64,000 nucleotides of DNA, taken from contig CM019071.1 of assembly GCA_009667805.1 (NCBI GenBank), positions 48,862,693 to 48,926,692 of the forward strand. Direction: 5' to 3'. A program made the position numbers and the translations under genes. This DNA is from Leptobrachium leishanense. Taxonomy: Eukaryota > Chordata > Amphibia > Anura > Megophryidae. The stretch's first letter is position 1. Every line of letters begins with the position of its first letter. Shown here piece after piece: positions 21,791 to 64,000 of this stretch. A model generated the notes under the pieces. The model saw nothing but the letters and a program-made list of their open reading frames with translations, made no database searches and was not told where the DNA came from.

Positions 21791-22329
21791 TGTGGAATCT
21801 GCTCCTATTGGCTGCGCAGTGAATCTGCTCTTCTCAGTTTCTTACTTGCTGGAAAGTGTTTTGGAGTGGAATCCATTCCATGCTGGCCTCCCATTGGCTG
21901 AGTGCGGTTATGAATAATGGGTTTTGTCAGATGCCCTTAAAATACCAATACTTTACCCCTCTGGTTTTTTTCTATATAAAAATAAGTTGTCATCACACCA
22001 CCCCGACCAGAAGACTCAAAGCCCCCCTCATTGCTGTCTGTCACAAACTACATTTCCCATGGTGCGTTGTGCAGCCATCCTCTTACCTCTGTGCTCCCCT
22101 ATGCCTGCAGCCTCCTCTCCGGACCCACCGACCGTTAATACAAGCAGAACCTGTCACTGGACTCCCAGTCCCCTCCCCCTGTCACTCTGCCTCCTCTCAT
22201 CACCCTGAGCAACCGAGGCCTTTCCACCACAGCCCGCGCCTGTTCACTGCCAACCCCGCGGCTACTCAATAAAGTTTTTGGTCATCCCCGCGGCAAGTCA
22301 ATAAAGTTGTTGAAATCCTACCAGGACGC

Positions 22330-26000: not shown

Positions 26001-29000
26001 GGGGAGGAAGAGGAGGCCGACAGGGAGAAGAACAGACACAGACAGGAGGGAGCGACTGGGAAGAGGAAACGGAAAAGGGGAAAGAGAAAGGAGGAAGAAG
26101 AGAAGAACGTGCAGCATCACGAGGCTGGCAGGTGAGGCAGAACCAGGCATGAAAGTGATGTCAAAGCTTGGTCGGCCATTGTAGGTGTGCAGTTCCTCGG
26201 TGGTCCCCCATACACTCTTTTCTGGTCCTTTTCCTCTTTCTCATCTGTCTTTCACTTGGACTGAAATCCAAAGAGCAGGAAGACACAGTGCTCAGACGGG
26301 TTCTCCTCCTTGTCTCCTCCTTTTAAATAGGCCCATTATTTCTCATGTCCCCCCACCACCAACCTCCTGTAATAAGGCAGGAATGTCCAAAACTCTGCCC
26401 CCCCCCCCCCCCCGATGTTCCTGAACTACAACTCCCAGAAATCTCTGACTGCATTAGATGGATGGAGAAGCATGGGAGTTGTAGTTAAGGGACATCTGGG
26501 GGGGCCGGAGTTTGGACATCCCTGGTATAAGGGTATCTGATATGTCAGGTCTCCCCATCCCTCTGTTCCATCGTGGCTCCTAATAAATCCTAGTAACGGC
26601 TCCGTCGGATCAGGACACGGATTTAAGGCTAACCTTTAAAAAAAACTTGTCTGACCCAAAAGATTTAGTATAACGGCCCTGCGTGTTTAGGCGGGACACC
26701 TGCTGCCCCATTCTAGCTGTCCCTTGCAGCTCCTTGCTCTAGATCAGTGTTTCTCAAACCTGTCCTCAGGACCCCCTAGCAGGCCAGGTTTGCAGGATAT
26801 GTGATGCACAGCACAGGTGATATGATTTGCTGCTCAGTGATTGCAGGATTCAGTTTGTATTTCCCCCAAGGGAATCTGCAAAATCTGGCCTGGTTGAGGG
26901 TCCCGAGGAGCGGTTTGGGAAACACTGCTCTAAATGAACGCTTCCTAAGCTCTGTATAGGTTTGTTTAGGAAGTGTTACGGTGCAGCAGCCAGAGAATAA
27001 AGAGGGATTTCAAGGTCCTTAATTGTTCTCTCTTGCAGACAGTAATGGGGGGGGGGGGGGGGGATTGTGTTATCTATAACCAATCTGAAAGTCAGGGGCA
27101 ACAAATGGGATGGGGGGTGGCGCAAATTAAACACGAGAGGGTCAAGAAATGGGGGGCATTCATGGCAATCCCTCTTGTGCTTATTTACACACAACGTAAA
27201 CATTTGAGATAACAGCATCTTTATTAGAGCATTTTGCTATTACAAGAGTTACGTTTTATGGATACCGGCTAAAGTTTGGGAACCGCTGTTCCACACCTAA
27301 GGAATGGAAGGGGATCGATATCAGGTTACAGAGTAATAACCGCTGCACGTTAAACCATGGTGAGCATGGAAGGAAAATCAAACACCGTCAGGTGAAGCGC
27401 CTTCAAAAGGAAATGCAACCATTATACGTGCATAAAGTGTAGGGCTGAAACGACTAATCGATAATGGAAATAGTTGACGACTAATTTAATCGGTGTTGAT
27501 TAATCGTCCTGTGTGCAGCACACACTGTTTAGAGTCAGACGGAGTTAAACGTAAATAACCTCAGCGTTGGAGCTGATTGGAGAAGACGTGCCGCTGCTTT
27601 ACTCGCTATGATTTAGTTCTAGGGTTATGTCAGACACAACCAGATTGTTTTTATTCTGTTTACAACAGTAGCAGAACTATTAACACAAACCATGGGATAC
27701 TGCCACTGGGTGAAGGAGCTGTATGCCTGTGTTTTATCCTTACTTGAAGCTGGAGTCCTGTGCCACCACCCTCCCTGCTGCACCCTCTTTGGTTTGGAAA
27801 GGCCATTCCCTCCCTTTTTGGTCTGGTCCCTTTCCCCAAACTCACTCCCACACTCAGATCCGGGTCTTTTGTCCATATCCACTCCCTCTCACACTCAGGT
27901 CAAGTCACTGGAGCAAAGTCACTCCCTTCCACCTCCAGTCCCTCCTCCCACTCAGTTTGTTCATGAAATTATTTAAAAGGGACACTCTACGCACCCTGAA
28001 CACTTTAGCTTATTAACCCTGATTTCATGCTGTCATCATCCTCTATGACCAAGTGCTTGTAGCCACGTTCATTTGAGAAAGCAAACATGGGCTTAAGCTG
28101 CGCCTGCAGCATCAACCCCTCCTTCTGACCAAGCGCTCGCAGCATCAACCCCATCCCTCCGACCAAGCGCTCGCAGCATCAACCCCATCCCTCCGACCAA
28201 GCGCTCGCAGCATCGACCCCATCCCTCTGACCAAGGGCTCGCAGCATCGACCCCATCCCTCTGACCAAGGGCTCGCAGCATCGACCCCATCCCTCTGACC
28301 AAGGGCTCGCAGCATTGACCCCATCCCTCTGACCAAGGGCTCGCAGCATGACCCATCCCTCTGACCAAGGGCTCGCAGCATTGACCCCATCCCTCTGACC
28401 AAGCGCTCGCAGCATCGACCCCATCCCTCTGACCAAGCGCTCGCAGCATCGACCCCATCCCTCCGACCAAGCGCTCGCAGCATCGACCCCATCCCTCCGA
28501 CCAAGCGCTCGCAGCATCGACCCCATCCCTCCGACCAAGCGCTCGCAGCATCGACCCCATCCCTCTGACCAAGGGTCGCAGCATCACCCCATCCCTCTGA
28601 CCAAGGGCTCGCAGCATCGACCCCATCCCTCTGACCAAGCGCTCGCAGCATCGACCCCATCCCTCTGACCAAGCGCTCGCAGCATCAACCCCATCCCTCT
28701 GACCAAGCGCTCGCAGCATCAACCCCATCCCTCTGACCAAGCGCTCGCAGCATCGACCCCATCCCTCTGACCAAGCGCTCGCAGCATCGACCCCATCCCT
28801 CTGACCAAGCGCTCGCAGCATCGACCCCATCCCTCTGACCAACTGTTGCATACCTTGTATGAAAAGTACCTAAGGTACAAACGTTACGTACACTTTACAA
28901 ATTGCTTATGAAAAAGGGGGAGGGGTTGTAGCTAAGTAAACTTTTTTCCGATTTTTTTTTTTATCTGATGAATCGAAATAATAATTGGCCAACTAATTGA

Positions 29001-29537
29001 ATTTATGAGAATAATCATTAGTTGCAGCCCTAATAAAGTGTAACCCCGGCTGTTCTCCGTCGCTCCGCTGGTGTTGATTTTCGTGGTCATGTCACACGGT
29101 GCCGTCATGCTGCTCTACTCGATTGCAAAGCGAATTCAGCATTGCGTCAAATATCGGCTTCAATACCCGGCTCCGGGTGATTTTATCGGGGGGGGGGGTG
29201 TATGACGAGTAAGGGGTGAGAGATCGGTCCCCTGTGGTCTCAAGCCCTTCTGTCTATTTTGCACGTTATCCTCCCGTGTACTCATTGCTGTTTTTTTTTT
29301 TTTTTTTTTGTCAGGAAACCTCGCGGCCGTCCCAGAAAGAATCCTGTGGTCCCTCTGGTGGTGGCTCAGACGTTGTCCAGCGCGGAGCCCTGCGCCTGGA
29401 GCTTTTGCCGTCACCCCCAGGAAGACACCGTCAGCTGGGTGCAGTGCGACCGCTGTGACTCCTGGTTCCACGTGGTGTGCATTGGCCGCAGCCTCACCTC
29501 CCTGCAGGACACAGACTTCCACTGCGGCTGCACGTGA
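23029..29537 (+). CDS. TCF19: TCF19, FHA/PHD chromatin factor (complete, 3 coding exons)
   Basis: Nuclear growth-regulated factor; FHA domain at the N-terminus, PHD finger at the C-terminus that in mammals reads H3K4me3. Exons 23029-23302, 25525-26131, 29315-29537 (TGA); phases 1 and 2, GT-AG; 367 residues (human 345). The ATG at 23029 has a strong Kozak context (GCCATGG); a second ATG at 23050 is possible. Exon 1: PCFQLLRM, DLYTFLPD, YRLG and AEIHAE (FHA strands, start of the domain). Exon 2 completes the FHA (ALSDGDLLHF), then VKPLDFSAIT, VILNSIGS, a basic/acidic stretch (about residues 225-290). Exon 3: AT-hook-like GRPRKNP then the PHD (WVQCDRCDSWFH). Intron 1 is filled by a 39-41-bp minisatellite, intron 2 carries a large hAT element. 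Diverges from CCHCR1 and converges with NPDC1. Confidence 0.95.
23620..25350. repeat. 39-41-bp minisatellite filling TCF19 intron 1
   Basis: Two sub-arrays. The left one (to about 24400) repeats a 39-bp unit with GACGCCCGCACACCTCATGT and ACATGGAGTAGACCCTAAA. The right one (24760-25350) uses a related 40-41-bp unit with GACACCCGCGCATCTCATAT and GGAGGAGCCCCTAAAAA. They are separated by a MITE at 24489-24733. Confidence 0.9.
24489..24733. mobile_element. 245-bp MITE inserted into the minisatellite
   Basis: Ends GGCCCCGTTCACACTGTGCG / CGCACAGTG-type complement ending GAACGGGGCC. Flanked by TAA on both sides; removing the element and one TAA restores the repeat unit CCCCTAAAAAG. Such 3-bp TAA duplications are typical of PIF/Harbinger MITEs. 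Confidence 0.85.
26378..26524. mobile_element. Palindromic MITE
   Basis: Left CAGGAATGTCCAAAACTC and right GAGTTTGGACATCCCTG; inner CTACAACTCCCAGA / GGGAGTTGTAG arms; a C16-like tract inside. TCF19 intron 2. Confidence 0.7.
26745..26927. mobile_element. hAT-type MITE, CAGTGTTTCTCAAACC family
   Basis: Terminal repeats CAGTGTTTCTCAAACC / GGTTTGGGAAACACTG with flanking 8-bp CTCTAGAT / CTCTAAAT (7 of 8). 183 bp, TCF19 intron 2. Confidence 0.85.
27440..29032. mobile_element. hAT-type non-autonomous element, 1.6 kb, carrying a minisatellite
   Basis: Ends TAGGGCTGAAACGACTAATC and ATCATTAGTTGCAGCCCTA, flanked by perfect 8-bp target duplications ATAAAGTG (27432-27439, 29033-29040). The interior has no transposase; it includes a unique segment (27600-28080) and the 34-bp tandem array at 28120-28845. 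TCF19 intron 2. Confidence 0.85.
28120..28845. repeat. 34-bp minisatellite inside the hAT element
   Basis: About 21 units of CCCTCTGACCAAGCGCTCGC + AGCATCGACCCCAT. Variants alternate GCGCTC/GGGCTC and ATCGACC/ATCAACC. The long minus-strand frame through it is not a gene. Confidence 0.9.
29315..29537 (+). CDS. TCF19: TCF19 terminal exon: AT-hook-like motif and PHD finger
   Basis: Begins after a long T-tract acceptor (29291-29314). Encodes PRGRPRKNP, then the PHD finger. Zinc ligands visible: Cys-X4-Cys at the start, QCDRC, FHVVC, and a final C-G-C directly before T-stop. Human TCF19 ends the finger with the usual C-X2-C and several more residues, so this copy has a shortened last ligand pair and tail. 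The two Trp residues that form the methyl-lysine cage region (SWVQC, SWFH) are present. Confidence 0.93.
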
Positions 29538-31651
29538 CCCAACTGGGACCAGACACTCACCTTCTCTTAACGCTCGTTCCATCTACTAACGTGGTCCTGT
29601 CTCCACCCTGATCTCTCATTGATTGCCGTCAATGGCAGAAAGTATTGAGGCCCGATGTTAAATACCCCCTTACCTGCTCCTTTCCCCACTCTGCATCCTA
29701 ATGTCCCCCCCCCCCCCCAGCCGCAGAGCGTAGCCCTGGTCCAGTCGTAGACGATAGAATCCCAGCTTGTGTTCACCTTCCTTTTGCAACGGTTTCATGT
29801 GAGGTCTGACACCCCCTCCCCCCCCTCCTTCATTCCTTGGGTATTGAAATTGGCATGGAGGTCGTGGACAAGCACCGTGGACCCAGATCCGCTCCTGCAC
29901 ACTAATTCCTTCATTATTTAACCCGGTTAAGCTTTTTCTCGGAGTCCAGGCCTCGTCACAGCTACAATAATGCAATCTGTATCAAGGACTGCCTTCAGTT
30001 ACTGGACGTGGGGGGGTAGCCAGGGTATGGGGTGGCAGATGGGGATTTTTCTTAATGTATACACTTTTTTTTTAGATTTTTTTTTTTTCTTTTCATGATA
30101 GACCCCGGTGCAGCTCTGGCTGATACTATTTCTTGGAAAGTCTGTTTTTTTTGGTTACAGACTTTGCATCAGAAATTCTGATTTCATTGGAGTATTATAG
30201 GACGTGTCGTTTCAAAATAGCTGGGGTGCCAAGGGTCACCATCATTGTCCTGTGCCTCCTGGCATGTTACCTGGAAGCCATCTAGCTTGTGGGTATAAGG
30301 CAGTGATTGCGTACCTTGGCACGCCGGGTGTTTCGGAACTACATGTTCCATGATGCCTAGCCAGCCTTAAGCCTGCCGGAGCATTGTGAGACGTGTAGTT
30401 TCAAACCACCTGGGTTGCCAATATTCGCCATAGCTGTCCTATGTTCACCAGCTAGGTGGCATCCAGGGGGCACTATGTATTATACATCTTCTGCATATAA
30501 ATGCAAACCTTTTCTGTTTTGCATAGATTGAGCAGGTGATATGGGGGGGGGAGAGACATGCTGCCTCTCCTAGCGAGACAATAGACCCCTGTAGCTGTAA
30601 AGGTTGGTTGGTTTGCTGGTCACAGGTGGCCATCTGATTTGTGTGCTACTACAGCTCCCATGATGCTGCAGGCCGGGCTGTTGAGCCTTAAAAAGACATC
30701 ATTGCCCAAATCGGCTGATCGCCCTGAATGCACGGCATGTGGATGGGCTGTCTACAACAGGGGGTCAGCAACCTTGTCCCCCTCAGAACTACAGCTCCCA
30801 CGATGCTCAGCTTCTTATGTTGGTAGATTCGTTGGGGGAGTGCAGTTCCAAAGTCCCTGGAGGACCTTGGTTGCTGATGACCCCTGGTGTACAGGTCTCC
30901 GGCCTATTGTTCCACATAACAACCAGCGCTAATAAAAGGAGAAACCGGAGGCAAGATTTCAATTCTGTAAAATAAAGGGTGAAAAATCCCTCTGTGGAAG
31001 TGAGCGGCGGTGTCCCGGGGATTATCTCGAATTTGGACATTAAAGGCAAAGATTTTTTTTCTTTCTCTTAAATGCCCCCTCCCCCAAAAAAAACCACCTG
31101 TCAGACCAACCATCTGAGATCCTGTTACTGTGTCAATCTCAAAGGTATATTCTATTAAAAAAAAGGTCATTTTTGACTTCCATGGATTCCCTTTTTTGCA
31201 GCGTGTGGGTTAATGCCTCCACTAAAGGGTTAACACTTTTTAAATAGCATGGTTGACCACAACGGGCGCGTGGGTTGAATGCTGCTGATTCATTAATCGT
31301 CTCTCGCCAGTCATCGGCTGCGCCCTGTAACTCCGACAGGACTTTAGTTGCCTGATTTAACCCTTTGTGACGATAAAACACATGCTGACGCAGGGGCATT
31401 CAACATTGTATTGAACTGGAATATATATAATATATATCTCCATAAGACTCTCTAAAACCAGACGTTTTGGAGCCTGTCCGGATTTTAGTGCTTCCGGACT
31501 AGGGGTGCTGGGTATGATCGCTCTCCGCTCAGGAATCCGACGGCTGTGTGCTGCAGCAGCTTGCGGCACGCGCCCAGAGCATCTGGGTAGCCGTTCTGCA
31601 GGGAGTCACGCAGACTCCAGCATGTGTGTAAAGGAGTCTTGCCTGGTCGGC
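29538..31651. other. TCF19 3' UTR / intergenic, no gene seen
   Basis: Contains palindromic MITE pieces of the 'ACTACATG..CCATGATGC' family (about 30190-30440, 30650-30690, 30785-30850), homopolymer runs and a possible AATAAA at 30971-30976. No POU-domain or other coding signal is visible on either strand. Confidence 0.5.
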
Positions 31652-40000: not shown

Positions 40001-43000
40001 GATTGGACGACCCGCTGTAAAACTTAACCAAAAACTGACCAAGATCTCTGCTGGATTCCCAGCTGCCGGCCGGCCCTCTCTGTGTGCTGATCCACTATCC
40101 ACGTGCTGCTGAGGAAACATGGCACAATGATGAGAGTTCACAGAGTACTCACCGGTACCAGCACAAAGCTGCCACGAGGATGCCCGAAAATCCCGTCAGA
40201 CAGCAGATCACAATCAGAGCTTTGTGTAAAAAGAGGAAAAAATCCATTAAATAAATAGAAAAAACCCATTTTTTTTAATGTGAATGAATCTCCCTTATTT
40301 ATTCGGACCCTTAACAGGCTTTTGCAGCTGCAGACCGACATTGTGCACTGCAGCCCCAGGCCGTTATCTATCATTTCTCCCAAGCTATTCTCCAATCCCA
40401 GCACACAATGCTCGTTGCTTGTTTGTTCCTCCCTCCAAATGCAAAACCTTGCATTTTATCACAGTGAAATGGATGTCTGTATATGAAGATTCCAAAAACC
40501 AGTAAGAAAATAAAACAAAACCAGTGAATGGGACGAAGGATGGGTAAGAGGAGCTTCCTAGGGGGGTGATTACCGAGGGAGATGGTCTGGTTGAAGTCGG
40601 ACTTCCTCATCGAGCTCATTCTCCACTCGAGGCCTGAAGCAAGGTTAGTCGGAGGAGATAGCGACACCGGGCCCATCACGGTGGATTTATTGGAGCGCTG
40701 GGGTAGGAGCGGCGCAGCTGTAGAAGGTGAAGAAGCAGCCGCTTCGGAGGTGGTTCGATCAGTGGGAGAGGCTGGAAATATAAAACCTGGTTACGTGAAG
40801 CGGGTTAAAAGCATCCATTGAACAGGAAATCACTTCTGGAATCTGGTCGGGATGGGACGATTCGGCTTTTAAACGGGGATAAGGTAGGAAATCAATAATG
40901 GGTGGAAACCAGGAAATTACACTGCCCGGCCAAAAAAGAGTCACACCCTGTAATGTGTGGTTGTGTCGTCTTTTGCTGTGATTGCGTCACGCATTCGCCG
41001 CGGCGCCGTTTGGATAAGCTCATGCAATGTCACAGCATTTATTGGCGTCCAGAGTGGCATTAATTTGTGGCCAAGATCTTGTGTTGATGATGGGAGAGTC
41101 GCGGCGCTGCGTAAAGTCTTCTCCAGCACATTATCCCAAAGATTAACCTCAATGGGGTTAAGGTCTGGACTGTGCAGTGGCCAATCCATGTGTGAAAATG
41201 ATGTCTCATGCTCCCTCAACCACTCTCGCACAATTTGATACCGATGAATCCTGGCATTGCCATCTTGGAATATGCCCGCTGTGCCATCAGGGGAGAAAAA
41301 AACCCATTGATGGAAAACCCTGCTCATTCAGTATATTCAGGGAGTCACATGACCTCATTTTTTTGCGTAACCTAGACCTGACCCACTGAAGCCCCCCCAG
41401 ATCATAACAGGCCTGTACCTTATTTTTAGCCAGGCAGTGTGTTTGTTTTAACGCAAGGAATTGAAGGAGGCAATGTTGAAAAATGAACGTCGCTTTATCT
41501 GATTATATAGGCAATACCCACCTTTTGTATAATGCGATTTATTTATATCTATATACAGTATATATATATATATATATTATAAAAATAAGGAAAAAACATA
41601 GGAAATACAAGATTTAAATGGCTGAATCGTGTTTCTGGACGCATTCCGTGCTGTTACAATGTTGCGATCTCTAGCTTTCTCCTGTGTCAACACCAATAAG
41701 CGCGTGAATATATATCTGGGTACACAATATCCTTATTCTCTGCGTGTATTGTAGCAATAAATCTAGATGTGACATCTGCGCCCCGCTCCTGCAGGAAGCG
41801 CGTCATCTGGACATGCATGACCCAGCTGTGCTCTGTATACATTATGGAACGGATACGCGTAACCAATGCCAACAGGGTTTTATGGCAGAACGGCTTCCCA
41901 AGCGTCCGCTAACCGCTCGGCCTCACATCAGACCTTGAGCTCAAACATGGATCAGTTCCGCCACAAATCACTGCTTTAATGCCAGATAATTCGGAATGAT
42001 AGATTCTCCTGCATTCGCCGGCCGGGCATCATCTTCAACGTGTCCGCATAGTCTTCCATCTGGCAACACAGCCGAGGAGGTGCTCGCTGGATACACCGTT
42101 TCCCCTTTTATTTACCTCTACGTTGCGGATGTTCTTTATATGTTTCATGATAAAAAGCATAAAATGAAACTGGGATTATATACACTAACCGGGATATTCT
42201 ATTTAAAGAGAAAGTTCCCTTTTTTTGCCCTTAAACAAAACGACAGATCCTGCTGACGGCCTCTGCCCAATTTATTTACTTTTGGGTGAATTTACTCACC
42301 TTTCATCCCTCACCGTGCGCTGCCGCTCCTCCTCTTCTTCGGCTCAGGGAGTCCTAAATCCGGAAGTCCCTGAAGCTTTTCTTCAGGACTTGCATAGTGA
42401 AGGAACCGCAAACTGCGGAGCACTACGGGGCTCGCACACTTTACGTACACAAGTTCAGTAGCGCCTGCGCAGAGCGATGGATGTGAGCTGCACGCGCATG
42501 CACAGATCTGATCCATCGCTGCCTCTCTGAGAACGCTCGCAACAGCGATTGGTCTCAAAGGGTGACGTCAGCCGCTTTCTGTTTGTGACATCACTAGTGA
42601 CTGATCTGATGACAGACAGCCGGTAAATTCAAAATCCCAGCTGCTGGTGATGCTAGGCGGGGTGGAGGACACTTCTCCACTTCACCCAGTGATTTCACCA
42701 GAACGGGGACAGGGACTCCTCACATCCTGACCATTTATAAACAATAAACTGGTTGTGGCACTTTGAATCTTTCAGAACTACATGTCCCATGATGCTCAGG
42801 TTGTCTTCGGACAGGCAGTACATTGTGGGACGTGTATTTTCGCAATATGTTGGCAGGGGCGGACTGACCCATCGGGCACTGCCCGAGGACCCGCGGGTCA
42901 GTGGAGGCCCGGTTTTGTAAGGCACCACGGCGGCAGCGCTCCAGCATGCCTTCCTGGGCCCCACGTGCACCCTGCATTGATGCCGCCCCCTCACATGAAA

Positions 43001-52000: not shown

Positions 52001-54982
52001 CCTTCTTTTTGAGAGTGTTCCAAACAGTTGTTTTGGCCACACCTAATGTTCTTGCTATCTCTCTGATGGGTTTGTTTTGTTTCTTCAGCCTAATGATGGC
52101 TTGTTTCACTGATAGTGACAGTTCTTTGGATCTCATCTTGAGAGTTGACAGCAACAGATTCCAAATGCAAATAGCACACTTGAAATGAACTCTGGGCCTT
52201 TTTATCTGCACATTGTAATTGGGGTAATGAGGGAATATCACACACCTGGCCATGGAACAGCTGAGAAGCCAATAATCCCATTACCTTTGGTCCCTTAACA
52301 AGTGGGGGCACATCTGCAAACTGCTGTAAGTCCTACACGTTCACCTGAGTTGGATGTACATACCCTCAAATTAAAGCTGACAGTCTGCAGTTAAAGCACA
52401 TTGTGCTTGTTTCATTCCAACTCCATTGTGGTGGTGTATAGAGCCAAAGATGTTAGAATTGTGTCCATGTCCCAATATTTCTGGACCTGACTGTATATAC
52501 ATCGTGGGGGTCATTCACTAATATGTATATATATACAGCGTTGTTGCAACCACGATAAACTTCCGCGACCACGATGGAGAAAATCAAAGAGAGGCAGAGG
52601 ACGTTTCTTCTGCCGTTGTTATATTTCAGGTCCGGCGATCACTATCGTGAGCGCAACAACGGCCTGTAATATGTAATATGAATTATATTTAATAATCCTT
52701 TACAATTCGCCTTGTGTTCCCAGACAGATATTGTATCACTTTTACAAACTGCCCTTGTTTTTCTCTTGTTTGTTTAGTTAAGAAAATATTTTCCTCTATA
52801 TATGTCACTGGGTGCATCCATTGTGTGATATTTTCCTCTATATGTGTCACTGGGTGCATCCATTGTGTGATATTTTCCTCTATATGTGTCACTGGGTGCA
52901 TCCATTGTGTGATATTTTCCTCTATATGTGTCACTGGGTGCATCCATTGTGTGATATTTTCCTCTATATGTGTCACTGGGTGCATCCATTGTGTGATATT
53001 TTCCTCTATATGTGTCACTGGGTGCATCCATTGTGTGATATTTTCCTCTATATGTGTCACTGGGTGCATCCATTGTGTGATATTTTCCTCTATATGTGTC
53101 ACTGGGTGCATCCATTGTGTGATATTTTCCTCTATATGTGTCACTGGGTGCATCCATTGTGTGATATTTTCCTCTATATGTGTCACTGGGTGCATCCATT
53201 GTGTGATATTTTCCTCTATATGTGTCTCTGGGTGCATCCATTGTGTGATATTTTCCTCTATATGTGTCACTGGGTGCATCCATTGTGTGATATTTTCCTC
53301 TATATGTGTCACTGGGTGCATCCATTGTGTGATATTTTCCTCTATATGTGCCACAGGGTGCATCCATTGTGTGATATTTTCCTCTATATGTGTCACTGGG
53401 TGCATCCATTGTGTGATATTTTCCTCTATATGTGTCACTGGGTGCATCCATTGTGTGATATTTTCCTCTATATGTCATTGGGTGCATCCATTGTGTGATA
53501 TTTTCCTCTATATGTGTCACTGGGCGCATCCATTGTGTGATATTTTCCTCTATGTGTGCCACAGGGTGCATCCATTGTGTGATATTTTCCTCTATATGTG
53601 TCACTGGGCGCATCCATTGTGTGATATTTTATTCTATATGTGTCACTGGGTGCATCCATTGTGTGATATTTTCCTCTATATGTGCCACAGGGTGCATCCA
53701 TTGTGTGATATTTTCCTCTATATGTGTCACTGGGTGCATCCATTGTGTGATATTTTACTCTATATGTCACTGGGTGTATCCATTGTGTGATATTTTCCTC
53801 TATATGTGTCACTGGGTGCATCCATTGTGTGATATTTTAATCTAAATGTGTCACTGGGTGCATCCATTGCGTGATATTTTGTGTTATAAACTGCCCCCCC
53901 CCCACACACAGTATCTTTCCATCACTTGCTCCTCACTGTGTGGTCAGATCGTCTCTCTCTGAATAACCCTGTAAATGAACATTCTTGTGCAGTGCCCTAA
54001 AACATATATATGTGAATAAAGCATGAGGGGGGGGTCAAGTCGACGGGGAACACATGGAATGCAGTCCCACTTCCTCCCTATTTTTGCAGGGTGAGCTAAG
54101 TTCCCATTGGTCCCACACACTATAAAGCTTGTACTCGGGAGATCAAACATACGTTTCTTTGTTAAATAACAATAATCCTATTTATCATATTTTTACCCAA
54201 AACCAGCCCATATGTATAACATTTTGAGAGTGCAGGGGGTTAAGGGCAAGATGGCAATCGATTATTGAGGGGGAGAAATCTTGGAGAGTTCCCACACTTA
54301 TTTTATTTTAGAACTTAACCCTTTCATAAAACCCTGGAGTATGATCCTAATTGTGTATATATATATATATATAATCTCCTTTGAAAGGTGTAGAATCAGT
54401 GGGTGCAGAGATGCTGCTCGACAGCACTGAGATAGTAACATGCAGGTCCCTGATACAGAGATGCTGCGCACCAGTATACAGCTTTTTCCTGCGCTCCTCC
54501 GAAATTCTGTTCCTATCCAAACGCCTGTACAGTGTGCGAACTATAAAGGACGACAAAGACTATTTCCCACCTTTTCCACGACCTGCGCATCGAGACACGC
54601 AGTAAAAAGGTTGCATATTTGTATCGTTAGTGCGTACATTCCATGTAAATGCTCGTAACCCGTATCCATGGAAACAGCATCAGGGTCTGGGTACCAGGAA
54701 ACAGTGAACAGGTTAGGAGCGAGTGGCTGAGCCAATCAGGGATCGTCAGCAACAGGAGGTTTTAGGTCAAAATAGCCAAAACGGGCAAAATTCCTCCACT
54801 CGGATCATTTTGCTGCTCGGATATTTTAAGATGACGAAAATCGCTGTTTCTGGTTGACGCACGACAATTCCGGGTTTAGTGATTAACGCACAAAGTATCG
54901 CAACACAAACCCGTATACACAGCACAGACTTACCTGTCAGGGCTACGAAGAGCACCAGGATGTGATGGGCGACAGCTGCCAT
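34037..54982 (-). CDS. NPDC1-family single-pass membrane protein (complete, 9 coding exons)
   Basis: NPDC1 is a neural/vesicle type I membrane protein that in mammals down-regulates proliferation and binds E2F1 and cyclins. Exons: 54982-54934, 50150-50010, 48025-47915, 40771-40574, 40219-40153, 37586-37508, 37398-37331, 37191-37098, 34093-34037 (TGA). All GT-AG, phases 1,1,1,1,2,0,2,0; 864 nt, 287 residues (human 325). Signal peptide 1-18 ([15 protein letters not shown]); Cys-rich ectodomain with CMLKRR and GCGSC (20-60); acidic PEEIIDLI motif (about 70-78); Ser/Thr/Pro linker; membrane helix about 168-188 ([19 protein letters not shown]) followed by [17 protein letters not shown]; conserved tail [13 protein letters not shown] and GEMEV-NPLFD. 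Introns 1-3 and 8 are swollen by repeats. It could be NPDC1 itself or a paralogue, so no symbol is assigned. Confidence 0.93.
34110..36979. repeat. 47-bp minisatellite, about 60 units, with a 16-unit higher-order repeat
   Basis: Unit: GCCTGCATGCATTCAGGTGA, GGCTCGGTATTATATACAGT, AGGTATA. Variants (CATTC for CATGC, CCGTGAG for CAGTAGG, CGCGG for CTCGG) mark units. The variants CCGTGAG at 35706 and 36458, and CGCGG at 36021 and 36773, are both 752 bp apart (16 x 47), so a 752-bp block was duplicated in tandem. Fills the last NPDC1 intron. Confidence 0.95.
37743..37947. mobile_element. Palindromic MITE, ATATGCA..GACACTAGATGGCGCAAC
   Basis: Left arm AAAGACACTAGATGGCGCAA and its complement at the right (TTGCGCCATCTAGTGTCTTT), extended outward by ATATGCA / TGCATAT. 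205 bp, NPDC1 intron 5. Confidence 0.8.
38123..39004. mobile_element. 882-bp MITE, family B, complete copy
   Basis: Starts CAGGGTTATTCAAAGAGA and ends TATTTGAATAACCCTG. Same element as 45807-47683, which has a 1-kb insertion, and as the truncated copy at 10118. A/T-rich middle, palindromic GGTAACCGAA block near the right end. No coding capacity. Confidence 0.8.
39080..39232. repeat. CCT/CTCC polypyrimidine tract
   Basis: About 150 bases of nearly pure C/T (CCTCCTTCTCCCCCTCCTCC, then CTCCCTCTCC). Lies between two MITEs in NPDC1 intron 5. A purine-rich strand of this length can form triplex structures. Confidence 0.8.
39273..39988. mobile_element. MITE related to family B
   Basis: Left GAGGGTTATTTAGAAAAC, right TTATTGAATAACCCC. 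Contains a hairpin CCCTGCGGTGAATTC / GAATTCACCGCAGGG around 39360, and T/A-rich tracts. Weakly bounded. Confidence 0.5.
40920..41439 (-). mobile_element. Tc1/mariner fragment with transposase C-terminus
   Basis: Terminal inverted repeats CACTGCCCGGCCAAAAA / TTTTTAGCCAGGCAGTG; a TA precedes the left end. On the minus strand the residual frame (41327-40941) shows the DDE-domain end: DGNARIHR, then [13 protein letters not shown]. The N-terminal DNA-binding part and the first catalytic region are deleted, so it is dead. Confidence 0.85.
42185..42755. mobile_element. MITE family D copy 2
   Basis: Shares long blocks with 32818-33345 (TTTTGCCCTTAAA, GGCCTCTGCCCA, GTAGCGCCTGCGCAGAGC, GCACGCGCATGCACAGATCT). 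Ends are less clear than in copy 1. Confidence 0.6.
42854..45086. mobile_element. hAT-type non-autonomous element, 2.2 kb, carrying minisatellites
   Basis: Ends CAGGGGCGGACTGAC / GTCAGTCCGCCCCTG with perfect 8-bp target duplications TATGTTGG (42846-42853, 45087-45094). Inserted into a palindromic MITE whose halves lie at 42770-42845 and 45095-45118. Inside are a GC-rich inverted segment (42930-43075), a 26-bp array (43105-44515), a short array of about 57-bp units (44514-44730) and unique sequence. No transposase. Confidence 0.9.
43105..44515. repeat. 26-bp minisatellite
   Basis: More than 50 units of GAGCTGGGCAATATATATCC + ATGTGT, with variants GGGGCA, CACTATA and TCAATG. Units become longer and irregular after 44380. 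A larger block (about 43215-43545 against 43575-43870) appears duplicated, since the order of variants repeats. Confidence 0.9.
45145..45806. mobile_element. Old T/A-rich MITE, relative of 16319-17605
   Basis: Starts GAGGGCTATTCACTAA and ends GTGCTTTGTGAAGAAACCCC. Interior T-rich with TATATATATA around 45445. Directly abuts the family B element. Confidence 0.5.
45807..47683. mobile_element. Family B MITE interrupted by a TTAA element
   Basis: Ends CAGGGTAATTCAAAGAGA / CTTTGAATAACCCTG with flanking TA. Minus the insertion it is about 882 bp, the same as 38123-39004. The sequence around the insertion (GCTTAA..AATATCC) matches the uninterrupted copy (GCCTAAAAGATCC). Confidence 0.85.
46287..47277. 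mobile_element. TTAA-type DNA element with a tandem series of perfect hairpins
   Basis: TTAA at both sides (46283-46286, 47278-47281); ends CCCTTTCGCTGCTGAGG / complement of CCACTTCGATGCTGAGG. The left 550 bp is A/T-rich. The right 440 bp is a row of separate perfect hairpins (arms 17, 22, 7, 10, 18, 16, 12 and 14 bp) between 46840 and 47271. No coding frame. Likely a piggyBac/Kolobok-type non-autonomous element. Confidence 0.85.
48290..49410. repeat. Degenerate about 40-bp minisatellite
   Basis: Units read AAAATGATCCAAGAGCCTCC + TTCCTACTCTCCACCTTCT, regular on the right and diverged on the left. NPDC1 intron 2. Confidence 0.8.
49411..49860. repeat. Possible LTR or repeat fragment with 25-bp tandem units
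   Basis: Starts TGCTGTCAGGATTACAACCC and includes a CTATTTAAGGTC TATA-like box, as in some Ty3/gypsy LTRs, but no second end is recognised. At 49665-49795 a 25-bp unit (GCCTGCAGCGTGTCCCATGA..) repeats about five times. Confidence 0.3.
50341..50505. repeat. Perfect 60-bp inverted repeat with 45-bp spacer
   Basis: Left arm 50341-50400 and right arm 50446-50505 are exact complements (62 bp with the outer TA). The spacer part at 50423-50442 recurs, reversed, at 50822-50841. NPDC1 intron 1, about 190 nt from exon 2. Transcription would give a 60-bp perfect stem. Confidence 0.95.
50849..52493 (-). mobile_element. Tc1-like transposon, 1645 bp, dead transposase
   Basis: Terminal repeats CAATCAGGTCCAGAAATATT / AATATTTCTGGACCTGACTG, flanked by TA. 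Transposase on the minus strand from ATG 52136: paired-like HTH (MRSKELSLS.., then a GRPRKT hook), then DDE parts WTDETKI, DNDPKHT and [11 protein letters not shown]. The frame is broken into pieces by several shifts and a stop after the HTH. The ends themselves are well preserved. NPDC1 intron 1. Confidence 0.93.
52786..53890. repeat. 42-bp minisatellite
   Basis: About 26 units of ATTTTCCTCTATATGTGTCA + CTGGGTGCATCCATTGTGTG + AT. Low divergence to the left, more variants to the right. The unit length allows long open frames on both strands (up to 358 codons); these are not genes. NPDC1 intron 1. Confidence 0.95.
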
Positions 54983-55930: not shown

Positions 55931-56439
55931 ACAGACAGCGGTGTTGCACACGTATACTATGTCTCTTGTAAATAATTGTCTTCTTCTGGTGTCGTGTCCA
56001 CCGGTGCTGTCCGGTATCAGTCTATCTCCATCCTTGGGGTGTCAGGATGTCCCTCTCCATGCAGGTGATGCCTCCTCTCCGTCGGTCTCTCAGGATGCTC
56101 TGTCTGTCTGCAGGTGTCTGTCTGTCATTCCCGCGCTGGAGCCCCGCTGAGGTGCATTACAGACACTGCGCACGGACAGATCTTTATGAATGGAGCGCTG
56201 CGTGGGAGGGGGGAGTCACTGTCTGCGCCAGCAAGATTGTCTCATCTGGTACAGAGACCAATGGGAGGCCGGAGAGCGAGGGATGGGAGGCCGGAGAGCG
56301 AGGGATGGGAAGCCAGAGAGCGACAACAAGCAGAAAAACAGAGGTGACAGAGACACAGAAAGACAGGCGAGCCTGCGGGAGAACTGGAATAGTTAAAAGA
56401 AGGCAGGATGGGCAGGCAACCTGGAATAACCTCCCAGTG

Positions 56440-57244
56440 GGGGCAGTAACAGTGATATATAAAGGGTAGTAGATACATGGAATAGCCTCCCAGTGGGAGC
56501 AGTACAGTGATATAGAAAGGGTAGTAGATACATGGAATAGCCTCCCAGTGGGAGCAGTAACAGTGATATAGAAAGGGTAGTAGATACATGGAATAGCCTC
56601 CCAGTGGGAGCAGTAACAGTGATATAGAAAGGGTAGTAGATACATGGAATAGCCTCCCAGTGGGAGCAGTATCTACTACCCTTTCTATATCACTGTTACT
56701 GCTCCCACTGAGAGGATATTCATGTAACAGTGATATAGAAAGGGTAGTAGATACTGCCCCATGAGGTTATTCCATGTATCTACTACCCTTTCTATATCAC
56801 TGTTACATGGAATATCCTCTCAGTGGGAGCAGTAACAGTGATATAGAAGGGTAGTAGATACTGCCCCCACTGGGAGGTTATTCCATGTATCTACTACCCT
56901 TTCTATATCACTGTTACATGGAATATCCTCTCAGTGGGAGCAGTATCAGTGATATAGAAAGGGTAGTAGATACATGATATAGCCTCCAAGTGGGGGCAGT
57001 AACAGTGATATAGAAAGGGTAGTAGATACATGGAATAGCCTCCAAGTGGGGGCAGTAACAGTGATATAGAAAGGGTAGTAGATACATGGAATAGCCTCCA
57101 AGTGGGGGCAGTAACAGTGATATAGAAAGGGTAGTAGATACATGGAATAGCCTCCAAGTGGGGGCAGTAACAGTGATATAGAAAGGGTAGTAGATACTGC
57201 CCCCACTGGGAGGTTATTCCATGTATCTACTACCCTTTCTATAT
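56440..57244. repeat. 56-bp repeat in both orientations
   Basis: Unit AGTGATATAGAAAGGGTAGT + AGATACATGGAATAGCCTCC + CAGTGGGAGCAGTAAC. Direct copies at 56440-56670 and 56945-57190, inverted copies at 56670-56910 and 57190-57244. The ERV is inserted in the last inverted copy. Confidence 0.85.
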
Positions 57245-57912
57245 TGTTACCGGAATCCACTTGGTTCACTCGGGACGAGGCCGGACCGGACACGAGCAAG
57301 GATTGTCTGGACACGAGTCTCTTCAGGAAAGGTAAACTTTATTGTGACGTCACACAGAATGTTCAGACAGGATTGAATCGCAAAGACTGAGCCCCGAGTT
57401 CCCCCCGACAAGGGGTCTTATACCCCGAATACATAATTAGGTACATCCCAATTAGCCCACCTCCCGGTGACACTATCCCACCCCACGTGGGTTAATACCA
57501 CCCTTAGTCTAATATAAAGACATTCCATTAAATTGGCAAACTTCATGTTAGTTTCAACAGATCATGATTAGTTATTACATCCAGTCCGGGCTGTGCTCGC
57601 CTCCCTAGCGCCTGTGCTCATTTGTTGCAGGTAGCACCTGGTCTATCTTCTATGCTTCCCTTTGTCTTGCTGGGGTCTCTGTGACCTTGATGTATCCACT
57701 TCTCATTCTATCCCTTCGTGCCAGGAACAGCCTCGATCTTTCTCAGGTTTTAATTGCTTTTCTGCTAATCTAACACATTCCTAAATTTCTACGTATGCTT
57801 CATTCTAGTTTCAGCTAAAACCTACCTAGTTATTTTCAAGTGAACCAATATTCTGAACAAGATGGCCGCCTGGCTTATAATGGCGGCCAGCTTCCAGGCT
57901 GATTCCACTTCA
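57245..57912 (-). mobile_element. ERV 3' LTR
   Basis: 668 bp. On the minus strand it begins TGAAGTGGAATCAGCC and ends CCGGTAACA. GGTATAAG (57424-57417) is a TATA-like box and AATAAAG (about 57344-57338) the poly(A) signal, so R/U5 is short. It follows a polypurine tract. The 5' LTR lies outside the window, so the age cannot be estimated here. Confidence 0.85.
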
Positions 57913-57924
57913 TTCCCCCCTTGG
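57913..57924 (-). promoter_or_regulatory. ERV polypurine tract
   Basis: AAGGGGGGAA on the minus strand directly before the LTR start, the primer site for plus-strand DNA synthesis. Confidence 0.8.
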
Positions 57925-58060: not shown

Positions 58061-59528
58061 CTATGTGGGTGTCAGTGCCCTCTTGCATAGTGGCCAGAGA
58101 CAGAGCCCTATGCCGTACAGTAGTGTCCCTACGACCAAGATCACCACACCATCAGAATCATGGATCCAATCTGAGATAAATCTCAGAATGGATCCGAACC
58201 AATCTCCGATTGCTCCGAACCCACGGAGTGGATTCCAGCCTTCAGCAGCGATCCTCCTTGCTGTGTTCTGCAACTGTGCTACCTTCTCCTGGTGATCTTG
58301 GATTACCTGGTAATAGTCAGGGACGTAATGTGTAGTGTTCTTGATGAAAGTGCAACATTCATAATGCATCGTCATCTCACACAATCCATTCAGAGCCGCA
58401 CTGATCTGTTCCAGTGCCATATCATGTATTATTTGTACCTTTCGTATCTCCAGTACTTCCAGATTCAGCAACTGAATATCCCAACTAGTCTTATTCAAAA
58501 TCTCATCCATCAAACTGACATAACTGTTCATTCTTGCCATCAACTCTCTTCCCCATCCAGTCCATGCTGGAAGCCATGCCCATATTCGATCCGCTTTCTT
58601 GAATAGCTCTCTCTTCTGTCTTTCAAACACCAGTGGGTACCTAGGGTGAAGTGTCGTGTCTGAATTAGTGTCTTCTCCCCTCACCCTCTGGATTGGGATC
58701 AATTTAGCCAGATAACACATTCCCGTTACTGTAGGTGGTACCCATGTGTAACACACCCTTTCACAGCACACCTGGTACCCTCCTTTCACTATAAATGGTG
58801 ATGAATATAGTGTTCCCTTTGTTATCTCTATCGCAAGTTGTCTCAGCTGTCTCATCATATCCACTGCATCCTGCCTTCCATTGGTCGCATTCGCAATCAC
58901 CTCCTCTTGCTCTCTAGTGAGTTGCCTGCACCGTATATAAAAATATATAATGCGCCTTTTAGTCCTGTTCTGAATATATAAATATATGATGTCCAGTTGA
59001 ACTGACTTGAGTTACATAACCCACCCTAATTGAAAACACCATTCTGGTTGGTACACTGGTCCTATTATGGGGTGCCCGGGACTGAATGATTCTGGTTTCT
59101 CCCTCGATGCATCGACTGCTTGTATTGTGACATTCCCTGATGCAAACATACTCAAATTCATTGGGACAGAGGTAAATGGTATATGAATTGTCTCTGGGTG
59201 TAGTCTACTACACACCCAGCATGCAGTTTGCCCAGACTTTTTAGCATAGTCATATTTAAATTGCACAAGTAAGTGTCCTCTTGGGCTGGTTCCAGATAGT
59301 ATGGTTCTCCATCACCGGGTGCGTACCATTCCAGATCTGGGAAATTTCCACTTTCTTGGTGGTGCTTGGGCACCTGGGGCATGCTCCACGTGATAGTCCA
59401 TGGATCAAATGTGCAAGAAACAAAATCAGTACCAGAATTGCCCCAACTGTCAAAAACCCTTGGGCAATTCTCTTCATAGTCACATAAACCCACTCCCTCC
59501 CCGCCGGAATTTCAAAAACAAAAGACAT
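58061..59528 (-). pseudogene. ERV env remnant (gamma-type, broken)
   Basis: Envelope protein of a gamma-type retrovirus. A leader with a hydrophobic stretch begins near 59528; the surface part shows a CWVC motif (about 59220), the CXXC type that makes a disulfide to the TM subunit. The last piece (58900-58061, 279 codons) holds a furin-type RQKR site (residues 94-97), a cysteine motif C-X7-CC (174-183), and an anchor helix (about 252-271) with a very short tail. Breaks: a frameshift near 59260 and a stop near 59012. The CC motif has one residue more than the classical C-X6-CC, and the surface subunit is short. Its 5' end overlaps the 3' end of pol in sequence space. Not functional. Confidence 0.8.
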
Positions 59529-59664: not shown

Positions 59665-62600
59665 TCAGGGGCTCATGACTGTGGTCTTTGTTTGCTTTAG
59701 CCTCAGTGGATTGGTCTCGTTGGTGACGACCTTCCATACTGGTTCAGGATTGGCTGCAGCTACCTTCAGTCTGGAGTGATGTATCCACGGGACCACCTCG
59801 GCAACCTTTACTGCTGTAGGGGTTGATAACAGGACAAAGTAAGGACCTCTCCATTTTGGGCCTAGTGGATCATTTTTCCACTCCTTCACCCATACTGAAT
59901 CACCTGGACAATACTTATGCAGTGGGGGATACAGAAAGTGAGGTATATTATCTCCCACCCAAGTATTTAATTTCTGCATTGCTTTACCCAACAGCACAAC
60001 CTGATCATTTAATTTAGTTTCCCCCAATGCCCGAAGGTTCCCCCCTTATTCCATTAATCAGAGGGGTAGGCCATCCAAACACGAGTTCGTACGGACTTAG
60101 CTTCAATTAGGGGATTGGCCTGCACCTAATGTGCAATAGGACTATCGGCAGCACATCCAACCAGCCTAGTGACGTCTCTTGGCACAGTTTGGACATCAAA
60201 GTCTTTAGGGTGCGGTTCATTCTCTCGACTTTTCCCGAGCTTTGGGGCCTGTAAGCCGTATGTAACTTCCAGGTGATGCCCAATAGTCAGGCAAGTTGCT
60301 GTAAACAGTTCTGTATAAATGCGGGGCCATTGTCCGACCCTATTTCGAGAGGAAGTCCATAGCGTGGTATTATTTCCTTCATCAGACTTTTCACCACTTC
60401 CACTGTTTTCTCCGTTCTTGTTGGGAAAACTTCTACCCATCCTGTACATACCATTACCAGTATTTATATCCTTTGCAGGGCGGCAGTACTGTAAAGTCTA
60501 TCTGTAATGATGCCATTGGGGACAGCCCGATCGGCTGCTTCCCCGGAGGTTGAGATGGGCCTGTTCTTGGATTATTTTTGGCGCATGTCACGCACTGCTG
60601 GGCTATTGCTTTGCAGACTACTGACAGTCCTGGCACATAGAAATGTGGCTCCAATTGCTGTTCCATCGTTTCTCTTCCTCCATGGGTACTTGCGTGGAGC
60701 ATTCTTATAATCTCAGGCGCCAGTGTTGCTGGTAGAACTATTTGTCCATTCTTCAACTGGAACCATCCGTCATCTCCATATCCGCCTTGTTCTTCTGACA
60801 GCCATTTCTTCTCTTTCTCTGAATATACGGGTGTCCATTCACTCAGTGGCGCCGGTAGGAGTGCAGCCACCACTGGTTTTGCTTTGTATCGTGCCAATTT
60901 TCCATGGTTTCCCCAGATAAATTCTTCTTTCGGGAAATAATATCGCCAGGCAAAGAACAGCAGATCTGGTCTTTCCTGTGAATCTCTCACTGCTGGTATA
61001 AAAAAGTTCATCGCACTTTTCTTCATGCTTGGCAGTTTGTTTTTGATAAGGATCTCCTTGAGGAAGAACCTCACCAATGGGGCTTGGTATTCTTCTGCTC
61101 CCAATTCTCCCAAATTTAGCAGTATTCGTGTAATTCTCAGATTATTATGAGGGTTGGTGGTTAGATTTTCAAAACGTGAGGCAAAATTTTCTGCTCGTTC
61201 AACTTCAACTTCGGTTACTTCTGAATCTTCTCCACACTCCCCCATTAATTTTACGCCGAAGAATTTCAGCATCATTTTGTATGCTCTGCGGAGTCCTTGC
61301 TGAACTTCTGAGGTGTTAATCATAAGACGTGTCTCTTGAGGGTTCAGAGGAATGGAGTAGAAATTTCGGCCTTGGGACCGGGTTGGGAAAAGCCATTGGA
61401 TGTAATCATGATTGAGTTCTAATAGTTCATAATCATTGTGCCATTTGTGCAGAATAATTTCAATAAATTTGCCTTTGGGTGCAAATTTTCTCCAATTCAT
61501 GTAGAACTCGTAATTTGGCATGGGAAGTTGAGCCTCTTGCTTGCAGAGCAGGACCTTGGCTTGATGAGTTGTTAGCAATGGTTTTGCAGCCGCTTTTGCG
61601 GCCTGGTCAGCGTGCCTGTTGCCTTTTGGGATTTCATCATGACCTTTCTGGTGGCCACGACAGTGCATAATACTGACAGCACTTGGTTTCCATACAGCCT
61701 CTAGGAGGGCTGTTATTTCAGCTGCATACTTGATTTGTTGTCCTGAGGAAGTAAGTAGGCCTCTTTCTTTGTAGAGTGCACCATGTGCATGGACAGTCAT
61801 AAAGGCATATTTGGAGTCAGTGTAGATATTCACTCTTTTGCCTTCGGAAAGTTGTAGAGCCCTGGTTAGGGCTGTTATTTCAGCCAGTTGTGCAGATGTA
61901 TGGCCTGGTAGAGAATTTGCTTCAATAATCTCTTCTGCTGAGACGACTGCATAGCCGGAGACTTTCTTCCCATCATCCATATAACTGCTACCATTGGTGA
62001 ATAGCTGTAGATCATATTTGTCTAGGGGTACGTCTTTCAAATCTGGCCTGCTACTGAACACTTCTTCCATGACTTGGAGGCATTCATGATCTGGATCCTC
62101 TTCACAGTCAGGCAGTAAAGTAGCAGGGTTCAAGGTAGCGATGAGGTCCAAATGAACCCGTGGATTCTCACACATCATAGCTTGGTACTTTGTCATCCGG
62201 CTGTTGATGAACCAGTAACTTCCTTTTACATCAAGCAGGGCTTTGACAGCATGGGGCACCTTGACATGAAGAACTTGTCCAAGGGTCAGCTTGTCTGCTT
62301 CTGCTATCAGCATTGCGGTGGCTGCCACAGCTTTCAGGCATGGGGGTAGGCCGCAGGCCACAGGATCAAGTTGCTTGGAGAGATAGGCCACAGGCCTTAG
62401 CCAGGAGCCAAAACTCTGAATCAGCACTCCTGTAGCTGTTTGATTGTGTTCATGCACGTACAGCTGGAAAGGCTTGCTGTGATCTGGCAGTCCCAGCGCA
62501 GGAGCTTCCATTAAGAGAGTCTTTAATTTTAGGAAAGCTGCTGTTTGCTCTTCTTCCCAGAGGAAGGGGTCATGCTCTCCTCGTTTGGTGGCTTGATGGA

Positions 62601-62909
62601 GGGGCTTAGCAATATCTGCGAAGTTGGGGATCCACAGGCGGCAGAAGCCTGCAGCTCCCAAGAATTCACGGACTTGTCTCCTTGTCTTTGGTTGGGGTAT
62701 GCGGCATACTGCTTCTTTTCTCTCTGCCCCCAGTGCACGCTTGGTACCTGTTAATTGAAAACCTAAATATTTCACAGTCTGTTTGCATATTTGTGCTTTC
62801 TTTTTGGACACTCTGTAACCTGCAAGGCATAGCAGATGTAGCAGGGCTTTTGTGGCAGAGAGAGTGTCTTGGTCTGTGGGAGAAGACCAGTAATAAATCA
62901 TCTACATAC
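59665..62909 (-). pseudogene. ERV pol: RT end, RNase H, OGFr-like insert, integrase (broken)
   Basis: Gamma/epsilon-type Pol. The RT YVDD site (62908-62897) is followed by a frame change, then an uninterrupted 815-codon frame (62901-60454): RT thumb/connection (1-290), RNase H (296-440), an OGFr-like domain (462-674), and integrase N-terminus with the zinc residues H736, H740, C770, C773 and first catalytic Asp (D802). Downstream the integrase core continues in other frames with an in-frame stop, and its C-terminal GPY/F part (GPYFV) lies at 60027-59665. RNase H Asp is replaced by Asn (FTNGSS, codon 61995-61993); E341, D362 and D432 remain. The 5' half of pol and gag are beyond the L2 insertion. 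Confidence 0.9.
60880..61518 (-). CDS. OGFr-like conserved domain captured inside ERV pol
   Basis: About 213 residues in frame between RNase H and integrase. The order of motifs matches the N-terminal conserved domain of opioid growth factor receptor (OGFR/OGFRL1): NYEFYMNWRK, HDYIQWLFP, RAYKMMLKFFG, NNLRITRILLNLGELG, YQAPLVRFFL, SAMNFFIPAVRD, FAWRYY..FIWG. In vertebrates this domain belongs to a nuclear-envelope/nuclear receptor for met-enkephalin that restrains cell division; its biochemical activity is unclear. There are no introns or stops within it, which fits capture from an mRNA. Gamma-type Pol normally has only a linker here. Assignment is by memory of the family, without a database search. 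Confidence 0.85.
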
Positions 62910-64000
62910 TTTATTATTTATTATTATTAATCTTTATTTATAAGCGCCAGCATATTCCGCAGCGCTGTACAATAAGCACAGTATAGACAGGGTTACAATA
63001 CATTGAACAACATTTGACAAACAGTACAGGAGGAGATGAGGGCCCTATTCCCGTAGGAACTCACAATCTGGGAGGGTTGGGGTTGGAAACAGGAGGAGAG
63101 GACTGTAAGGTGAGAGTGATTGATGGTTGCGTCAGTGAGTTGGGTGGTAGGCTTCCTAAATAGGAATGTTTTAAGGGAGCGTTTGAAGGAAGAGAAGTTA
63201 GGGGAAAGTCTGACAGTACGAGGGAGAGCGTTCCAGAGAGTGGGGGCTGCGCGTGAGAAATCCTGCAGTCTATCATGGGAAGAGGTGATGCGGGGAGAAG
63301 CTAGGCGCAGGTCACTGTTTGACCTTAGGGAGCGGGCTGGGGTGTATTTGGTGATTAGTGAGGACAGGTAGTGGGGAGCTGAGTTAGTGAGGCTTTTGTA
63401 GTAAGGATAAGGATTTTGAACTTAATTCTGCAGTGGATGGGGAGCCAGTGAAGGGACTCGCAGAGGGGAGCGGCAGAGACAGAGCGGCGGGTGAGGTGAA
63501 TTAGCCTGGCGGAGGCGTTCAGGATGGATTGTAGGGGGGAGAGGTGGGACAGAGGGAGGCCAGATAAGAGATTATTGCAATAGTCGAGTCGGGAGATTAC
63601 CAGGGCGTGTATGAGTTGTTTTGTGGCGACAGCGGTAAGAAATGGCCGAATTCTGTAAATATTACGCAGTTGGTATCGGCAGGAGGAGGAAAGAGACTTG
63701 ATGTGGGGGATGAAGGAAAGAGCAGAGTCAAGTGTAACTCCAAGACAGCGAACTTGGTTTGATGGGGAGATGGTGATACCCTCCACCGTGATCGAGAAGT
63801 CAGGAGGTGGGGCGGCATTAGAGGGAGGAATAAGTAGGAGCTCAGTCTTTGACATGTTGATCTTTAGGTGGTGGGAGGCCATCCAGGAGGAGATGCCAGA
63901 TAAACAGTCACTGACTTTGGAAAGGACAGGGGAGAGAGATCAGGGGTAGAGAGGTAGATCTGAGTGTCATCAGCGTAGAGGTGGTAATTAAAGCCAAAGC
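62910..64000 (-). mobile_element. L2-type LINE inserted in ERV pol (3' part, runs off the window)
   Basis: Minus strand. The RT YADD box is at 63977-63966, followed by a frameshift, then 63882-63355 encodes the RT end with KINMSKTELLL, VRCLGVTLDS, ALVISRLDYCNNLLSGLP and LHWLPI, as in L2/CR1 elements. The 3' UTR ends ATAAAGATTAATAATAATAA, immediately before the YVDD codons of the ERV. A second copy of the 3' end is at 5120-5235. Confidence 0.9.

Follow-up and report, generated by a model that had tools for sequence, protein, structure and literature searches.

A family of endogenous retroviruses of the frog Leptobrachium leishanense with an in-frame OGFr domain at the RNase H-integrase junction of Pol

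A pol frame that carries an OGFr domain

The window analysed here is a stretch of 64,000 nucleotides from Leptobrachium leishanense (assembly GCA_009667805.1, contig CM019071.1, positions 48,862,693 to 48,926,692), and on its reverse strand lies the remnant of an endogenous retrovirus (ERV) whose pol gene includes a domain of the opioid growth factor receptor (OGFR). A first-pass annotation, made from the letters alone, had read an 815-codon open frame in the order reverse transcriptase (RT), RNase H, OGFr and integrase zinc finger. Pfam supports this order, with the qualification that the RT part is only the C-terminal end of the enzyme (Table 1), and also recognises RT_RNaseH in the frame. 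The OGFr_N match (PF04664), which had been expected to be significant, covers residues 461-668 with an E value of 6.7e-69 and 232 bits against a curated cut-off of 22, spans profile positions 6-206 of 208, and is recovered again (E 1.7e-69) when positions 60880-61518 are searched on their own. Only the conserved OGFr domain of OGFR is present in the viral frame, without an intron; the ends of the OGFr-like span given in Table 1 were set by eye against host proteins. The segment has a G+C content of 0.405, compared with 0.456 to 0.497 in its neighbours. An AlphaFold2 model of the viral domain is mainly helical, with a mean predicted local distance difference test score (pLDDT) of 89.2; a solved relative was found neither by sequence search nor, with confidence, by fold search.

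The provirus that bears the domain is gammaretrovirus-like (class I), as judged from two parts of its Pol sequence. Compared with the Protein Data Bank (PDB), its RT-RNase H region is nearest to RT/RNase H p80 (4hkq; 477 bits), an entry of the murine leukemia virus (MLV) group, and the next group, Pr125Pol, is far lower at 100 bits. An MLV-type integrase C-terminal domain (GPY/F; Pfam MLVIN_C) is also present, and is listed for the proteins P0002 and P0008 as well.

Table 1. Features of the provirus and of the adjoining element in the window
Feature	Positions	Strand	Details	Basis
pol remnant	60454..62901	-	frame open for 815 codons, from the last part of RT as far as the integrase zinc finger	ORF translation, Pfam
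End of RT	62752..62880	-	RVT_1, residues 8-50, 14.6 bits, under the Pfam cut-off	
RNase H	61585..62010	-	residues 298-439, Pfam RNase_H E 1.6e-24	
Linker, RNase H to OGFr	61522..61584	-	residues 440-460	
OGFr domain, probably captured	60877..61521	-	residues 461 to about 675	Pfam OGFr_N, model
Integrase zinc finger	60565..60732	-	Integrase_H2C2, residues 724-779	Pfam
Integrase C-terminal piece	59668..60027	-	MLVIN_C, E 3.5e-18, outside the main pol frame	Pfam
env-like open frame	58061..59011	-	probable transmembrane subunit	position after pol, weak GP2-type match
Polypurine tract (probable)	57913..57922	-		inspection
3' long terminal repeat (LTR; probable)	57245..57912	-	668 bp, TG...CA, AATAAA at 57338-57343	inspection
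Long interspersed nuclear element (LINE)-like element	62907..64000	-	adjoins the pol remnant on its 5' side; RVT_1 E 0.0048, under the cut-off	Pfam, inspection

A family of carriers and an empty site

The arrangement is not peculiar to this locus. Among the best 120 of 943 matches to the junction region and the best 120 of 186 to the domain alone, at least 29 protein clusters of L. leishanense (13 from the junction-region search and 16 from the domain search; 91 member sequences, with species known for each cluster representative only) have a close OGFr domain. Many of these clusters are partial gene models. When they were compared by BLAST with the window's own flanks, RNase H was found in 17 of the 29 and integrase in 20; both flanks are present in 11, at least one in 26 and neither in three, so that the second ERV copy with the same two junctions that the first-pass annotation had anticipated does exist. 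The most complete arrangement is illustrated by P0002 (882 amino acids, representing a cluster of 49), in which RNase H, OGFr and integrase, including the integrase core and C-terminal domain, run unbroken in one frame, while P0011 combines RT and RNase H with OGFr. The OGFr domains of the 21 carriers compared are 53 to 88% identical to that of the window. An assembly chimera, or a chance insertion at this locus alone, was considered and is contradicted by the number of clusters, by the copies with both junctions and by this spread of identities; we give it practically no credence.

Related Pol proteins without the domain are also available for comparison. Among the best 120 of 569 relatives of the RT-RNase H region only three carry OGFr, all of them from L. 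leishanense. The OGFr-free protein P0244 is one continuous Pol of 1198 amino acids that is 68% identical to the window copy in RT-RNase H; its RNase H and integrase matches are 23 residues apart, as against 251 in the window, and the window copy therefore has about 228 extra residues at this point. The sequence on the integrase side is recognisably common to the two, and alignment reveals the empty site in P0244 and in six other OGFr-free Pols. In a 46-row tree of RNase H (37 of 117 OGFr-free proteins, eight of the 29 carriers and the window), the nine carriers lie on one side of a single branch with support of 100/98, and the carrier state changes once in 100% of 200 bootstrap trees. Because these nine rows form one clade, the domain was likely gained once.

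Relationship to host OGFR

The first-pass annotation had proposed a spliced OGFR or OGFRL1 mRNA as the origin of the domain; both the choice of gene and the spliced message are less secure than the rest of its reading. In the best trees the ERV OGFr domains form one clade (100/100) among the tetrapod OGFRs, nested within the host proteins; OGFR is favoured over OGFRL1. In a 54-row tree (12 ERV rows and two Leptobrachium host rows) the ERV clade joins a Leptobrachium host-like OGFR with support of 96/79, and the two together then join the OGFR of Pelobates fuscus (96/92). This tree omits P0017 and P0146 in addition to the partial and long-branch rows whose omission had reduced 86 rows to a 76-row tree. 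Four proteins (P0135-P0137 and P0140) were assigned to host OGFR genes by their place in the tree and, for P0135-P0137, also by an N-terminal stretch. Together with P0055, these host OGFRs of pelobatoid frogs share the Pfam domain with the virus and lie closest to the viral clade when the best tree is considered; they differ in having other N- and C-terminal parts, whereas the virus keeps the conserved domain alone. The approximately unbiased (AU) test rejects fish OGFR as nearest kin (p 0.023).

We note that tandem OGFr domains occur in host-like proteins of fish and dart frogs (P0012-P0017), with two each in Phyllobates and Ranitomeya and three in Labeo.

Constraint on the domain

The carriers fall into three sublineages: a main clade, a clade B (P0018, P0019, P0134 and P0139) and a clade C (P0129 and P0160). 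Site-by-site variability was compared between the ERV domains (the window and 16 of the 29 carriers) and 44 host domains, and the two are correlated (Spearman 0.52, 218 columns). When sites are divided into quartiles of host entropy, from the most to the least conserved, the main-clade consensus departs from the clade B consensus at 11, 31, 50 and 69% of sites. At least 80% of the ERV rows keep the host residue at 45 of 53 host-conserved sites, and at 17 of the 19 that are polar, W or Y; Y548 and G563 are substituted in all 17 ERV rows. The openness of the frames was not in itself counted as evidence, because gene prediction favours open frames. From this pattern of change we strongly infer that the OGFr domain has been under purifying selection while its carriers split into at least three sublineages, which supports the earlier suggestion that it was part of a working virus; having been kept through diversification, it was presumably useful to that virus. 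A neutral passenger, inserted and tolerated without function, would account for the faster change of OGFr than of the enzymes that flank it, but this is very improbable given that differences between sublineages are concentrated in host-variable sites and that most host-conserved sites have been retained.

Overall, we regard it as highly probable that these proteins are a family of retroviral Pols with an OGFr domain in frame, that this domain goes back to a single gain, most likely from a frog OGFR, and that purifying selection has maintained it as useful. Several observations weigh against one or another part of this reading. P0160 shows no pol flank, and P0010 and P0129 show none by BLAST; the named carriers, among the matches listed, all come from the protein set of one species, L. 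leishanense. In most of the 21 carriers compared, OGFr has evolved faster than RNase H and integrase: P0139 is 54% identical to the window in OGFr and 73% in integrase, and P0019 is 70% identical in RNase H and 53% in OGFr. The pelobatoid groupings are weaker in the 76-row tree (80/70 with Leptobrachium and 85/95 with Pelobates). OGFRL1 as nearest kin is marginal in the AU test and not formally rejected (p 0.062), nor are the OGFRs of Xenopus (0.188), of neobatrachians (0.158) or of other tetrapods (0.204), and a placement of the pelobatoid hosts apart from the ERVs is likewise not rejected (0.208). Since these tests leave other tetrapod OGFRs standing, a pelobatoid source is a best guess and no proof.

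Possible roles of the domain

Retroviral Pol products are made in small amounts, are packaged in virions and reach the new cell together with the entering complex, and MLV-like viruses require dividing cells. Of the roles raised in the first-pass annotation, modulation of host growth control is plausible and nuclear targeting of the viral complex conjectural. As the likeliest mechanism, though one at less than even odds, we tentatively suggest that the OGFr domain would be made within Gag-Pol and packaged in the virion with Pol, that the viral protease would perhaps free it, and that it would act early in the newly infected cell as a mimic of OGFR, competing for a partner or ligand of that protein; such a decoy could lift an interferon-responsive brake on growth and so help a virus that needs dividing cells. 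Some residues of the linkers that flank OGFr recur across the sublineages and may mark protease sites. The cellular side of this proposal draws on published passages in which OGFR inhibits the G1-S step (PMC8363427), ogfr is termed an interferon-stimulated gene in trout (PMC6009034), poly(I:C) raises ogfr in yellow drum (PMC10178140), and ogfr is present in macrophage gene lists (PMC2846935).

The recurrence of parts of these linkers would also suit a role internal to the virus, in which the domain, as a folded appendage of RNase H/RT or of integrase, adjusts reverse transcription, the stability of the complex or the choice of target site, as would its position between two enzymes of one complex and in frame with both. 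We consider this somewhat unlikely: OGFr-free relatives have the same enzymes without the domain, and the sites kept in the virus are those conserved in host OGFR, suggesting that an old binding function was retained. It is also unlikely, and slightly more so, that the domain is cargo of an intracellular element, captured after endogenisation, multiplied in Leptobrachium through retrotransposition and of little consequence for infection. The restriction of the named carriers to L. leishanense among the matches listed and the 49 members of the P0002 cluster would fit such a history, but the env-like frame is still open in the window copy and the pattern of change is one of constraint on the domain.

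OGFr domains are found in other viruses too. The sole clear match to the domain among viral protein models is annotated 'Opioid growth factor receptor' in Marseillevirus LCMAC202 (A0A481YX38, E 6.1e-6), and of 24 pattern matches in a scan of viral contigs, five were confirmed (L001-L005, contigs of 15.5 to 435 kb), all with OGFr_N above the cut-off. One frame (L001:5308-6438) has a NADAR domain (E 4.1e-38) ahead of OGFr_N (E 1.8e-22), a fusion that is a possible hint to a working partner of OGFr. These giant-virus proteins resemble the ERV copies in being OGFr domains carried by a virus; they differ in that they match at 27 to 34% in the best segment, lie on contigs of DNA-virus size, and are in no case fused to Pol in the translated frames. 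With OGFr present both in ERVs and in large viral contigs, viruses have probably taken it up more than once. The wider reading, in which a virion-packaged decoy domain let a lineage of retroviruses use an interferon-responsive host factor that restrains growth against the host itself, and in which OGFr would be a module that viruses acquire repeatedly for counter-defence and OGFR an antiviral factor so far overlooked, is speculative and in our judgement doubtful.

To our knowledge, foreign domains fused within retroviral pol are few, dUTPase being the standard case. In non-primate lentiviruses that enzyme lies between RNase H and integrase. Passages of PMC1224870 describe dUTPase inside pol of non-primate lentiviruses, and the likeness to the present family is that of a foreign domain inside Pol; there the virus is a lentivirus and the cargo an enzyme, whereas here the virus is MLV-like and OGFr is, as far as known, non-enzymatic. 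Crocodilian ERVs, in passages of PMC4299795, captured KIT-ligand (CrocERV29) and nectin3 (CrocERV31), and these too are host genes in multi-copy ERV lineages under purifying selection, the capture of KIT-ligand having cost the virus none of its domains; they differ in that each has a frame of its own, either between pol and env or substituting for env, whereas OGFr is an in-frame domain inside Pol. The first-pass annotation knew of no retrovirus with the RNase H-OGFr-integrase architecture, and none bearing OGFr was found among the papers listed in literature searches (in one case the best 20 of 7,047, in another the best 20 of 36), which miss most subscription papers and bioRxiv and are thus no proof of novelty. 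A survey of recent ERVs mined from 2004 vertebrates (PMC10435555) contains no mention of opioid, captured, accessory gene or dUTPase, and a single one of Leptobrachium, in the legend to a figure that deals with threatened species. OGFr would add a quite different cargo to pol, in an MLV-like lineage that retained it while diversifying. The finding draws attention to OGFR, an interferon-responsive gene whose biochemistry is poorly known, as worth mimicking for a retrovirus, and the viral copy offers a natural minimal form of OGFr for a search for partners.

Remainder of the provirus and its surroundings

The earlier statement that env and the end of integrase have decayed holds for the catalytic core of integrase, which in the window copy is interrupted after residue 815. 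It does not extend to the MLVIN_C piece, which is still readable, or to the env-like frame, which is open for 316 codons from stop to stop and has as its best PDB match a weak one to a GP2 ectodomain (E 0.013). A single probable 3' LTR lies within the window, and the 5' end of the provirus is not in it. By inspection, the LINE-like element has a ATAATAATA tail and adjoins the RT remnant close to position 62907, whose opening few codons in the pol frame differ from related RT; because of this abutment and mismatch, the 5' part of the provirus appears to be either truncated or beyond position 64000. With the LINE-like element upstream, gag, protease, most of RT and the 5' LTR are unreadable in the window.

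The outer edge of this probable 3' LTR coincides with the start of an array of a 56-base repeat with inverted copies (56337-57281). Elsewhere in the window there is a fragment of a DDE_3 (Tc1/mariner-type) transposase (40944-41327, reverse strand), and three repetitive stretches (52689-53845, 28093-28869 and 21019-21917) yield long open frames, on a single strand or on both. Pieces of BRCT domains and of an HCR coiled-coil protein lie at 1221-2847 (forward strand), 14764-15363 (reverse) and 25506-29589 (forward), and the same stretches include a frame that resembles an FHA domain, without a Pfam hit. Together they resemble the MDC1-CCHCR1-TCF19 neighbourhood of the major histocompatibility complex (MHC) region.
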